Assembly (NCBI RefSeq): GCF_014696435.1
Contig: NZ_JACJQG010000001.1
Coordinates: 207,268-271,267, forward strand
DNA: 64,000 nucleotides
From: Calothrix anomala FACHB-343
Lineage (GTDB): Bacteria > Cyanobacteriota > Cyanobacteriia > Cyanobacteriales > Nostocaceae
Reading direction: 5' to 3'
The position numbers and the translations under genes are program-made. The first letter of the stretch is position 1. Each line of letters opens with the position of its first letter. The notes beneath the pieces were generated by a model. The model searched no databases. It was not told where the DNA came from and was given only the letters and a program-made list of their open reading frames with translations. This document shows, in pieces, positions 14,299 to 51,336 of this stretch.

Positions 14299-14341
14299 GA
14301 ACCCCACCCCCAACCCCCTCCCCGCCAGCGAGGAGGGGGCT
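14299..14341. repeat. REP-like GC-rich hairpin
   Basis: A copy of a dispersed GC-rich repeat of the form AACCCCACCCCCAACCCC then CTCCCCGCCAGCGAGGAG. Relatives are at 16289-16326, in the MITE at 31347-31400, and in extended form on both sides of the DUF559 gene (35949-36023, 36385-36458). Confidence 0.85.
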
Positions 14342-15913: not shown

Positions 15914-16323
15914 ATAACTGCTGTCCTGGATTCCACGCCATTGGTCAAGACTGTAATTTCACTGATATTTTATTTTGGCATAGGCTTTGATACTTGGCGG
16001 TGCGTTGCACTGCGTGACAACACAATGGCAAATGTGGATTAATCTGTTGCATCCCCGACATACCGCCCTCAGGCTGGAAGCCTGGGGCTATCCTTATAAA
16101 GCCCACCTTTGTGGGCTAAAAACAGTCCACAAAGGTAAGCTCTGTTTGATTAGCCGCACCATTCTATGGTGACGGCGGGATTTCGGGATTGTTAGGTTTT
16201 ATTGTGCTGTCCAGATCCCCCCAGATGCCCGACTTTTTGAAAAAATCGGGGATCTAAGGTAGATGGGGGTTATCTGTGAGCAATTTAGCCCCTCCTCGCT
16301 TGCGGGGAGGGGTTGGGGTGGGG
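15914..16323. other. Gene-free stretch with dispersed hairpins
   Basis: It holds a hairpin AGCCCACCTTTGTGGGCT (about 16101-16118), an AGATCCC-family palindrome (16214-16254, arms around CCCGACTTTTT) and a REP-like GC-rich repeat (16289-16326) that ends at the radA stop codon. No gene is evident. Confidence 0.7.
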
Positions 16324-17895
16324 TTATTCTTCATCGGGTTCTAAATCTTCTTCCGTGAGTTCTTGATGGGGGATAGCGGCGATAATTGCATCGATTACTT
16401 TGGAAACTGGTAAAATCTCGATATTAAGATCGGGAAATTTTGTTCCTTTGGGAACGATCGCTCTTTTAAATCCCAACTTCGCCGCTTCTTTTAACCGCAG
16501 TTCCATCTGGGAAACCGATCGCACTTGTCCCCCTAACCCGACTTCACCAATTAAAACTGTACCTGGATCGACGATGCGATCGCGGAAACTGGCAACAATA
16601 GCGATCGCAATTCCTAAATCTACGGCTGGTTCTTCGACGTTCAAGCCACCAGCCGAGGCGACGTAGGAATCTAGCTTCGACATGGGAATTCCTACCCGTT
16701 TTTCTAACACTGCTAAAATTTGCACGAGGCGGTTATAGTCTATCCCTGTAGCGGCGCGTCGGGGTGAGGGGTAGCTAGTAGGGCTTACCAAAGCTTGCAA
16801 TTCCACAACGATGGGGCGAGTACCTTCGCAAGCGACAACAATCGCCGTACCAGGCGCGGGATCGTCACGATTACCTAAAAATAGCTCGGAGGGGTTAGGA
16901 ACTTCACGCAATCCATGAGATACCATCTCAAAAATACCGATTTCGTGAGTTGCACCGAAGCGGTTTTTTACTGTCCGTAATAACCGATGGGAGGCAAAGC
17001 GATCGCCTTCAAAGTACAACACCGTATCTACTAAGTGTTCTAAAACTTTCGGCCCCGCGATCGCGCCTTCTTTAGTTACGTGTCCCACAATTAACATTGT
17101 CACATCTTCATGCTTGGCGACTTTCATCAGTGCCGCCGTACATTCCCGTACCTGGGCTACGGAACCCGGTGCAGATGTCAGTGCTGGAAAGAACACTGTT
17201 TGAATACTATCAATTACTGCCACATTTGGTTTTAGGGAGTCTATTTCCCGGAGAATTTCTTCTAAATCGGTTTCTGGCAATATATATAAATCTGCACCTA
17301 TACTGTCAGGGTTTATACTTTTAGGGTCTATAGAAACAGGTATGACTTCACTTTTAGGATCTATGGGAACAGGTGTTACTTCCTCTACAACTGTATTTTC
17401 ATCGCCTACAACATTGACGCTTTTTGATACTCCCAAGCGGGACGCTCTTAATTTTACCTGTTGACCAGATTCTTCGCCTGTGACATAAAGGATGCGGTAT
17501 CTCTGCGCTAATTGATTTGAGACTTGCAACAGTAAAGTAGATTTGCCAATTCCCGGATCGCCACCAATTAGCACCATCGAACCAGGAACCACCCCACCGC
17601 CCAAAACCCGATCTAATTCGCCATAGCCAGATTCCCAACGCGCAATTTGGCGATCGCTAATTTGATCGAATGTTAAAGAAGAGCGTGGTTTGGCTGGTTT
17701 AGCATGAGATTTGCCATTATTTTGTGCTGATTGCCAACCACTCACACCCCCCCGGCTGGGTATATCAACTGATGATTGGATAGAAATTTGCTCTTCTAAG
17801 GAATTGTAAGTGCCGCAAGCAGGACACCTACCAAACCATTGAGAAGATTCTGCTCCACAGTCGTTACAAATGTAAAAGGTCTTGGACTTTGCCAT
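16324..17895 (-). CDS. radA: DNA repair protein RadA
   Basis: RadA is a DnaB-like, RecA-related helicase that drives branch migration in recombination repair. The N-terminal zinc finger (CNDCGAESSQWFGRCPACG), Walker A (GGDPGIGKSTLL), the diagnostic KNRFG motif (VKNRFGATHEIGIFEM) and the Lon-protease-like C-terminal domain are all present. An insertion between Walker A and the Walker B region contains two 11-residue near-repeats (VPIDPKSEVIP, VSIDPKSINPD) encoded by a 33-bp DNA duplication at 17317-17382. Overall length 523 aa is somewhat above the usual 450-510. Confidence 0.97.
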   Translation of the reverse strand: MAKSKTFYICNDCGAESSQWFGRCPACGTYNSLEEQISIQSSVDIPSRGGVSGWQSAQNNGKSHAKPAKPRSSLTFDQISDRQIARWESGYGELDRVLGGGVVPGSMVLIGGDPGIGKSTLLLQVSNQLAQRYRILYVTGEESGQQVKLRASRLGVSKSVNVVGDENTVVEEVTPVPIDPKSEVIPVSIDPKSINPDSIGADLYILPETDLEEILREIDSLKPNVAVIDSIQTVFFPALTSAPGSVAQVRECTAALMKVAKHEDVTMLIVGHVTKEGAIAGPKVLEHLVDTVLYFEGDRFASHRLLRTVKNRFGATHEIGIFEMVSHGLREVPNPSELFLGNRDDPAPGTAIVVACEGTRPIVVELQALVSPTSYPSPRRAATGIDYNRLVQILAVLEKRVGIPMSKLDSYVASAGGLNVEEPAVDLGIAIAIVASFRDRIVDPGTVLIGEVGLGGQVRSVSQMELRLKEAAKLGFKRAIVPKGTKFPDLNIEILPVSKVIDAIIAAIPHQELTEEDLEPDEE

Positions 17896-22727: not shown

Positions 22728-22795
22728 TTAATTATCCTAACTTTTCTAAATGTTTAAAATAGTCATTTGTCATTAGTCATTGGTCATTTGTCAAG

Positions 22796-22884
22796 AAATT
22801 GTTGACTGTTGACTGTTGACTGTTGACTGTTGACTGTTGACTGTTGACTATTGACTATTGACTGTTGACTATTGACTGTTGACT
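22796..22884. repeat. GACTGTT heptamer tandem repeat
   Basis: About a dozen copies of TTGACTG/TTGACTA in tandem, running into the stop codon of the CBS gene. The same heptamer fills gaps at 26653-26690, 37400-37438 and 44548-44585. Confidence 0.95.
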
Positions 22885-23347
22885 AATCTTGACTTGCAGC
22901 CATTGCGCGAATAATGTCACCACGGGTGAGGATACCAATTACTTGACCCGCGCTGTCAAGTACCGGTAGACGGTGAACGCTGCGATCGTGCATGATTTTG
23001 GCTGCTTCTTTTAAAGTTTTATCAGGGGTAATGGTAATTGGATTTTTGCTCATCACATCCCCGACAGTTTGTCCTAGTGCTTTGTGCAAGTCACGTTCAT
23101 AATCACCGGGATTTTGTAAATAGATCACACTATCGAGAAACATGATGTAAGCCGGAGGAGTCACACCTGTTTCTTGCCACATCAGATCTGTTTCTGAGAT
23201 AATGCCTACCAATTTACCAACATCATCTACAACAGGTAGACCGCTAATGCGTCTTTCTGCCAGAATTTGAATGGCTTCCTTCAGTGGAGTTTCTGAGCGA
23301 ACAACAACTGGATCGTGGCTCATTACGTCGGCAACTGTTTTCGGCAT
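22883..23347 (-). CDS. CBS-domain pair protein
   Basis: Two CBS domains make up nearly the whole 154-residue protein: first VADVMSHDPVVVRSETPLKEAIQILAERRISGLPVVDD, second VGDVMSKNPITITPDKTLKEAAKIMHDRSVHRLPVLDS. CBS pairs bind adenosine nucleotides and act as energy or redox sensors. No effector domain is fused. Located between nblB and mutT on the same strand. Confidence 0.93.
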   Translation of the reverse strand: MPKTVADVMSHDPVVVRSETPLKEAIQILAERRISGLPVVDDVGKLVGIISETDLMWQETGVTPPAYIMFLDSVIYLQNPGDYERDLHKALGQTVGDVMSKNPITITPDKTLKEAAKIMHDRSVHRLPVLDSAGQVIGILTRGDIIRAMAASQD

Positions 23348-35674: not shown

Positions 35675-35948
35675 TGCTCACTCTCCATTAAGAACTTTTC
35701 TCAAAAATTTTGCAAAATAGTTGCAAGTAAATCCTTAAAGCAATCTAAAACTTTTGAGAATAAAAGTCAATATTTTTAAACATGAGTCATTAATCAATGG
35801 ATTTTATAGAGTAAAGCCGCAAGTTGATTCATGGAGCAGAGTAGTTCTAGTTTTAGCAGCACGAAGATTGGGAAAACTCAATAGACAAAGAAAAAAATTA
35901 GGCAAAAATAAATGTCTCAAAGCCAACAATCAAATTCCAATTTCGATT

Positions 35949-36023
35949 CCCCCTCCTCGCTTGCGGGGAACTCGGGGCCCCCACTCTGTGGGGATTAGGG
36001 GCAGGGGTTAGGGGGTGGGGTTC
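35949..36023 (+). repeat. Left arm of 74-bp inverted repeat around DUF559
   Basis: 75 bp beginning CCCCCTCCTCGCTTGCGGGG and ending GGGGGTGGGGTTC. It matches the reverse complement of 36385-36458 except for one extra A. It is an extended member of the REP-like family, with an additional GGGGCCCCCACTCTGTGGGG hairpin. Confidence 0.95.
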
Positions 36024-36076
36024 CTTGGCAAGCACCACCAAAACTTTGGGAAAAACTCAAGCCATTAGCACGACAG

Positions 36077-36385
36077 ATGCGGCGCGAACCGACACTTGCA
36101 GAAAAGAAACTATGGCAGAAGTTGAGATCTAAGCAACTACTAGGTTTTAAGTTTCGCCGTCAGCATGTAATCGATCGCTTTATTGTGGATTTTTACTGTC
36201 AACAAGCGCATTTGATTATTGAAGTTGATGGTGGAATTCACGAATATACCCAACAAGAAGATGCAATTCGTCAAGAATTTTTGGAAAGTCTTGGGTTAAA
36301 GGTGATGAGGTTGAAAAATGAGGATGTTTTGAATTCAATTGATGAGACGTTGGTAAAGATTGTGCATGAGCTGCAAAGTCGGTAG
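36077..36385 (+). CDS. DUF559 (Vsr-like PD-(D/E)XK) endonuclease
   Basis: A 102-residue protein containing the full DUF559 core: EPTLAEKKLWQKLRSKQLLG, FKFRRQHVIDRFIVDFYC, LIIEVDGGIHEYTQQEDAIR and LGLKVMRLKNEDVL. The acidic residues in IVDFYC and IIEVDG fit a Vsr/PD-(D/E)XK active site. The frame continues upstream without a stop through VPWQAPPKLWEKLKPLARQ into the left repeat arm, then meets TAG at 35996, with an ATG at 35912 beyond it. The stop codon's last base is the first base of the right repeat arm. Confidence 0.88.
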   Translation: MRREPTLAEKKLWQKLRSKQLLGFKFRRQHVIDRFIVDFYCQQAHLIIEVDGGIHEYTQQEDAIRQEFLESLGLKVMRLKNEDVLNSIDETLVKIVHELQSR

Positions 36386-36458
36386 AACCCCACCCCCAAC
36401 CCCTGCCCCTAATCCCCACAGAGTGGGGGCCCCGAGTTCCCCGCAAGCGAGGAGGGGG
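36385..36458 (+). repeat. Right arm of 74-bp inverted repeat around DUF559
   Basis: 74 bp beginning GAACCCCACCCCCAACCCC and ending GCGAGGAGGGGG, complementary to 35949-36023. The two arms could form an extremely stable hairpin enclosing the 361-bp gene. Confidence 0.95.
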
Positions 36459-37399: not shown

Positions 37400-37438
37400 A
37401 CTGTTGACTGTTGACTGTTGACTGTTGACTGTTGACTC
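37400..37438. repeat. TTGACTG heptamer repeat
   Basis: Five tandem heptamers directly after the SDR stop codon. Confidence 0.9.
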
Positions 37439-37495
37439 TTAAGAAAGTTTTTTCATCCGTTCTGGTGTAAGCAATTCATGACGGCTACTTCATCC

Positions 37496-50743: not shown

Positions 50744-51336
50744 TTAACTTAGTTAACTAGGTCGGCGTAATTAAATATAACTGTTAAGGGCTGTCATTTG
50801 TCATTTGTCATTTGTCATTTGTCATTTGTCATTTGTCATTTGTCATTTGTCATTGGTAAGGGTTTCAAATATACCAGGACTTACGCGATAACTCTCCCAA
50901 ACCCTCTTTACTTCGTGTTCTTTGCGTACTTCGCGGTTCGTTTTTTCATGATTTTGCGTAAGTCCTATATACTTACGTTTCGTAATATAGCAATCCTCAA
51001 TCATTTGTAAAATTTACCAAATCTCAGTATTTTTCTCTTATCCTTGGCGTTCTTGGCGGTTCATTAAAAAAATATTTTCACAACTCAGATAGGATTGCTA
51101 TATAGTTTGGTTTATTTATATCTACTGACTTAGACAAACAAAATTCAAATTATAGGTCGAAGTTGTTAACCACTTTCTACTCTCTCTGTGTTCTCTGTGT
51201 CTCTGCGGTTCCATTAAAAAAATACTTTTCACAACTCCTACATAAATTCCTATACAACTGAAATGTCCTAAAAACTCAGATATGGTGGGCATTGCCCACC
51301 CTACCATATTTCCTGTAACGCTGGTTTGGAGAATTA
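50744..51336. other. Upstream region of dndD, repeat-rich
   Basis: It contains nine tandem GTCATTT heptamers (50793-50855), a TATAGCAATCCT...AGGATTGCTATA inverted repeat (50985-50996 with 51091-51103) and copies of short stock phrases such as TTCTCTGTGTCTCTGCGGTT and GGGCATTGCCCACCCTACC. No gene is evident. A dndC or dndB remnant was looked for and not seen. Confidence 0.75.

Follow-up and report, generated by a model that had tools for sequence, protein, structure and literature searches.

A palindrome-bounded DUF559 nuclease gene in Calothrix anomala, probably decaying, as a possible member of a family of homing-like mobile units

The stretch of DNA analysed here (the window, 64,000 nucleotides of the genome of Calothrix anomala FACHB-343) carries a small nuclease gene between two inverted palindromic arms, and two shorter copies of the palindrome elsewhere. 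The features discussed below are the following:

35949..36023, + strand: left palindromic arm, hairpin then tail, the tail towards the gene (75 nt)
36385..36458, - strand: right palindromic arm in inverted orientation (74 nt; it carries the 33-nt insert of the left arm too)
35999..36385, stop included, + strand: DUF559 (PF04480) EDxHD/Vsr-like nuclease domain, open frame; first possible ATG at 36077
35912..35998, + strand: upstream portion of what was ancestrally the nuclease frame, in the same phase as the gene (ATG 35912 to TAG 35996-35998)
35970..36002, + strand: 33-nt insert of the left arm by comparison with sister genomes, containing TAG 35996-35998; exact ends ambiguous (G runs)
14299..14340, - strand: solo short (ancestral-type) palindrome, ends approximate
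16289..16325, + strand: solo short palindrome, ends approximate

The inverted arms, proposed in an earlier note made from the sequence, are real: they align at 98.7% over 75 columns with one indel, and show 96% complementarity over 71 nt without a gap, plus a 19-nt continuation. The enclosed gene is a DUF559 endonuclease gene, as had been claimed (PF04480, E 7.7e-39, 132.4 bits against a curated cut-off of 20.6 in a profile search), and is the one full DUF559 gene of the 9.24-Mb genome, which holds one other, weak and partial match (E 2.7e-4). The reading frame is also as the note described it: the stop codon (TAG 36383-36385) overlaps the start of the right arm by one base, and upstream the frame runs back through the left arm to the TAG at 35996, with the ATG at 35912 before it. 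After that TAG the next in-frame ATG, GTG or TTG is ATG 36077, inside the domain. The key acidic residues were said to be kept, and the invariant residues of the family (D54, E65, D67, H71 and D78, in 36 of 36 alignment rows) are indeed present in the window copy. The arms had further been described as enlarged members of a REP-like family dispersed in the window. This is true of the short palindrome, which recurs at the two solo positions listed above, but not of the enlarged 74-bp arm, since the 20-mer GGGGCCCCCACTCTGTGGGG is confined to the two arms within the window (up to 3 mismatches allowed; 0 expected). Heptamers of the TTGACTG and TCATTTG kind are repeated in tandem at 22777-22901, 37400-37454 and 50779-50874 of the window.

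The same locus is present in Calothrix brevissima NIES-22 (L020) at about 90% identity over 6 kb. The arms of L020 measure 42 and 41 nt; those of the window are 33 nt longer and carry the same insert in both, which is absent from both arms of L020. By this comparison the window copy is derived, both arms having gained the same 33 nt since the split from the sister genome. In the sister loci L020, L021 and L025 the nuclease frame crosses the left arm without a stop, from an upstream ATG, and the window gene differs from that of L020 at 8 of 351 sites (dN 0.013, dS 0.065). Measured against shuffled sequences, neither of the enlarged window arms shows better folding (z of 0.67 and 0.32, versus -2.65 for the left arm of L020). 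The insert thus spoils the hairpin and puts a TAG into the frame, so that the window copy is probably truncated or decaying, perhaps dying; the expectation of the earlier note that the gene should be active is doubtful for the same two reasons. The insert is resembled at four further sites in the genome (of the GGACTCGGGG...GGGGATTGGGG type), and it is therefore probable that one arm received a second repeat, which was then copied to the other. The left arm would once have been part of the nuclease frame, which the incoming repeat would have broken, and the same insert in both arms would be the expected outcome of repairing one arm from the other. A lesser example of such a change common to both arms comes from a different locus, where a single substitution is present in both arms of L030 and in one arm only of its orthologue L032. 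The hairpin loop of the left arm reads GCAAGC in L025 and L028 versus GCTTGC in orthologues, so that the loop is flipped when compared with the right arm.

In relatives, repeats stand at the same position around the DUF559 genes, and empty sites exist as well: beside the neighbour of the window unit, which we take to be a phnD-like gene, 4 of 9 genomes in this genus have a filled site (one of them with a gene that contains a TAA) and the other 5 an empty one. A search for a base-exact intergenic empty site, made at the window locus, L161 and L177, gave none.

Flank repeats were then surveyed around 164 distinct DUF559 genes from six phyla, 156 of which had enough flanking DNA (8 were dropped), with a threshold of 30 bits within about 300 nt of the gene; 274 other genes from loci of at least 6 kb, mostly cyanobacterial, served as controls. 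The distribution of the repeats is non-random relative to these genes. Inverted repeats flank 82 of the 156 DUF559 genes versus 5 of the 274 controls (Fisher 1e-37), and inverted or direct repeats 107 versus 9 (Fisher 7e-51); both values ignore kinship, and related loci in the survey are not independent of one another. Among the controls, inverted repeats of at least 30 bits were present at 2 of 133 small and 3 of 141 large genes. Repeats of either kind were found in cyanobacteria (59/80), Chloroflexota (7/10), Bacteroidota (18/32), Patescibacteria (19/27) and a plasmid collection (4/7), where the positives are from Deinococcus, Sinorhizobium, Sphingomonas and, by direct repeat, Neisseria. No flank repeat at 30 bits was detected at 49 of the 156 loci, including the E. 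coli, Azospirillum and Photobacterium genes. For the E. coli gene, 3,363 of 5,426 genomes have one place covering at least 80% of the 6.3-kb query, and a flank repeat was absent in the one copy tested. The presence of DUF559 is patchy: 132 of 195 sampled genomes of the order, 61 of 118 genomes of the phylum of G198 (source genome of a Flavobacteriales locus) and 24 of 96 of the phylum of G199 (source genome of an Uhrbacteria locus) contain it. Inverted palindromes stand on both sides of a DUF559 gene between paaD and paaZ in Deinococcus psychrotolerans (L097, 2968-3321) and of another between sufB and sufC in Sphingomonas parapaucimobilis (L099, 2983-3393).

With later loci added, the set grew to 217 distinct DUF559 genes. 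Hairpins scoring at least 22 were found on both flanks of 90 out of 208 DUF559 genes versus 11 out of 325 controls, the latter being the 274 above and 51 SDR and phnD-like genes of relatives, with four that have DUF559 next door and two from the window's own genome left out. The palindrome sequences are lineage-specific and their form is mostly common, namely a G/C-rich tail like CCTCACCCC, a few bases and a GC-rich hairpin (for example CCCCTCTCC-loop-GGAGAGGGG). The geometry of the arms is mixed, inverted or direct and with the tail inward or outward, and follows no single pattern. Composite arms occur at L161 (5809-5899 and 6321-6412), which agree in hairpin order, although one of them has its inter-hairpin spacer in reverse orientation. 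In 59 relatives a strict REP pattern was present in 11 of 35 genomes with DUF559 and in 1 of 24 without (Fisher 0.018), a weak association because several of the counted copies are the arms themselves. No GIY-YIG genes were found by motif search in the fetched loci.

A subset of the units lies inside proteins. Frames of more than 400 codons hold 34 of the 217 DUF559 genes, and 30 of these long frames were scanned with Pfam (L056, L054, L107 and L387 were left out). Eighteen are restriction-modification or methylase proteins (one DUF1156), seven are leucyl-tRNA synthetases (LeuRS) and two are methionine synthases (MetH); of the remaining three, one is a radical SAM protein, one an M23 peptidase, and the third has no clear host. 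In LeuRS the unit sits before the editing domain (site A) in six cases and after it (site B) in one, L150. Empty sites are seen at A in L150 and at B in L079 and L041, and solo palindromes at B in L039 and L132 and at site C in L130 and L150. Across site A, the solved LeuRS chain with the best match runs on without a break, query residues 300 and 461 meeting chain residues 236 and 240. The inserts in LeuRS and MetH keep the reading frame open, and the palindromes are translated with them, as LTPNPSPEERG and SPRERGPGG in the LeuRS of L039 and as HPPTPSLREG and LSLGEGKGG in the MetH of L146. These units inside proteins are the strongest indication of insertion. The in-frame presence of a nuclease domain within LeuRS and MetH is striking, and it provides filled, empty and solo alleles.

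As to mobility between genes, 126 pairs have domains at least 80% identical. A test was possible for 115 of them: 59 share at least 80 nt of outer DNA and 56 do not; many look-alikes are therefore simply orthologues. The clearest pairs without outer homology include L161 versus L177, L305 and L306, from one genus, with domains 95-97% identical and no homology of at least 80 nt outside, as well as L258 and L266 (93.5%) and L260 versus L261, L265 and L267 (89-90%). The surroundings of such pairs are islands that turn over, so that rearrangement may also account for them. L066 and L161 have about 285 nt in common beyond the right arm and nothing further out. The Nostoc loci L025-L032 were rejected as evidence of mobility, as their upstream DNA is common over 500-1,700 nt at about 90% and they represent one locus (dN 0.012-0.042 and dS 0.08-0.38 among the orthologues L026-L032); L165 and L168 were rejected likewise, their outer DNA being common in the same way. 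L070, with two DUF559 stretches, was excluded from the argument. On pSymB of S. meliloti, the best-covering records with the upstream flank also carry the gene and thus give no information on an empty site.

The relation between palindrome and nuclease was examined for the 189 of the 217 genes that have one or more hairpins of score 20. The similarity of the palindromes climbs steadily with nuclease identity, from a mean of 13.3 at 40-50% to 30.7 at 70-80%, and for pairs below 80% nuclease identity the observed correlation was reached by none of 300 permutations. With at most 250 pairs a bin, palindromes scored 21.7 at 60-70% identity, versus 14.3 for the remaining flank and 13.8 by chance, and 31.0 at 70-80%, versus 17.3 and 13.8, respectively. 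The bins above 80% add little because many such pairs are orthologues at one locus. Paralogs within a genome (74 pairs) have a mean palindrome score of 14.5 and are about as unlike as unrelated pairs, and the two palindrome types of G154 each match a counterpart in G128. For 50 paralogs from multicopy genomes, the palindrome of the closest outside relative was more similar in 29 and less similar in 20, a signal that is absent where close relatives are missing. Judged by these scores, the palindromes follow the nuclease more than the host genome. G440 contains 205 palindrome copies by the strict pattern, of a type that differs from the one flanking its only DUF559 gene (L269), so that palindrome copies can exist without a resident cognate nuclease. 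Many of the copies in this genome (L281-L298) stand in inverted pairs 100-200 bp apart, with unlike interiors and conserved inner ends, CTACGA...TCGTAG.

By profile, the nearest solved structures are 3hrl (E 1e-36) and 3r3p, the homing endonuclease I-Bth0305I (E 2.7e-5). A model of the window protein (pLDDT 88.5) gave the same two as the first Foldseek matches (3r3p at E 8.9e-5), with Vsr, which nicks at T:G mismatches, much weaker (1cw0, E 0.14). I-Bth0305I is therefore nearest after 3hrl in both fold and sequence, and the E, D, H, D pattern of the EDxHD enzymes is invariant here. It differs in being an EDxHD-family 'mobile intron protein' (PDB title; PMC3943268), whereas the DUF559 units here are open in frame with no evident intron or intein, and in that our DUF559 query matched only 3 of 50,697 phage records. 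A DUF559 gene is assigned to the EDxHD homing family in one line of PMC9403480. VsrA of Caulobacter also holds a DUF559 domain and, according to PMC12907096, is required for the SOS response in cells without a cytosine methyltransferase, so that it resembles the present proteins in its domain and departs from them in its tie to cytosine methyltransferase function.

The arrangement also resembles that of REP sequences and their RAYT transposases (REPtrons), in which palindromes made of a hairpin and an unpaired tail bracket the gene, solo repeats lie elsewhere and enzyme and repeat form lineage-specific pairs. Unlike RAYT, DUF559 is a PD-(D/E)XK-like nuclease and not a Y1 (HUH) transposase, and its arms may be coding. 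No Y1/HUH transposase was found between the window repeats, where the only matches were PF04480 and a PF18741 match under its cut-off, and neither a GTAG nor a CGTC tag was present on either strand of the 42-nt arm of L020. The palindromes of Rickettsia palindromic elements (RPE) are translated in frame within genes, and we know of no nuclease in them. PMC3733652 names RPE and attributes the mobilisation of GTAG REPs in other bacteria to RAYTs. Our search found no publication joining DUF559 or Vsr-like nucleases with palindromic repeats, which is weak evidence of novelty since subscription journals and preprints were largely beyond its reach.

Taken together, nuclease and palindromes suggest a mobile genetic unit that has not yet been described. 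We are inclined to regard the window locus as a decaying member of a widespread homing-like unit, consisting of a palindrome arm, a DUF559 nuclease gene and a second palindrome arm. The nuclease would recognise and nick or cut its cognate palindrome (as a hairpin, a cruciform or a long bipartite site) or an adjacent target, and repair of the break would copy the unit, one palindrome or one arm into the site, similar to the way in which homing endonuclease genes are copied; stop-free arms would let units survive as translated inserts. Such cutting and copying fits the matched pairs, the solo copies, the arms with the same change and the in-frame survival. Two interpretations offered in the earlier note, that of a minimal mobile unit of nuclease and REP arms and that of REP hairpins as possible substrates of the nuclease family, both gain from these comparisons and appear partly supported. 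Counting against the homing-like unit are the repeat-free loci, the mismatch in G440, the mixed geometry and the lack of a base-exact empty site.

Among the other explanations, DUF559 might be a passenger in palindrome-bounded segments that an unrelated transposase (RAYT or another) moves in trans, some of them with the nuclease gene. The mobilisation of GTAG REPs by RAYTs, the solo palindromes without a nuclease and the foreign type of the copies in G440 speak for this, but a passenger would have no need of a lineage-matched palindrome, whereas here the type of palindrome goes with the nuclease and often differs between paralogs of a single genome; we consider this unlikely. We give slightly less credence still to DUF559 as a Vsr-type host repair or restriction nuclease that acts on palindrome hairpins or T:G mismatches, with the palindromes as control or substrate sites of a unit that is not self-mobile. 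The role of VsrA in the SOS response of methyltransferase-less Caulobacter (PMC12907096), the weaker structural match to Vsr and the restriction-modification or methylase proteins among the long frames agree with it, but the LeuRS and MetH units with empty relatives and the near-identical units with nothing common outside are difficult to explain without mobility, and the patchy presence also speaks against it. Passive accumulation of palindromic repeats in dispensable DNA, where DUF559 also sits, is very improbable: these genomes are rich in repeats (a hairpin score of at least 22 was reached in 114 of 650 control flanks) and half of the near-identical pairs are orthologues, but inverted flank repeats are rare around control genes of either size, the palindromes match nuclease lineages, and units lie inside the essential LeuRS.

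The homing-like unit may, as a broader and more tentative proposal, represent a class of elements that crosses phyla, in which a tiny hydrolytic EDxHD nuclease, and not a transposase, would spread its own gene and the matching palindromes by cutting palindromes or target sites. Solo palindromes would then be non-autonomous copies and landing pads, and read-through arms would allow units inside essential genes like leuS and metH without splicing. If true, such a class would account for how many untagged or orphan REP families arose, and the matched pair of nuclease and palindrome offers a candidate function together with a direct test. Upstream of the phnD-like gene, L232 (G415) carries an insertion of about 130 bp that is absent from L231 (G419), with palindromes of the GTCATTGCGA type, AGGACTTAC ends and a possible short target duplication; it is a candidate clean empty site for a repeat of the CGTC type.
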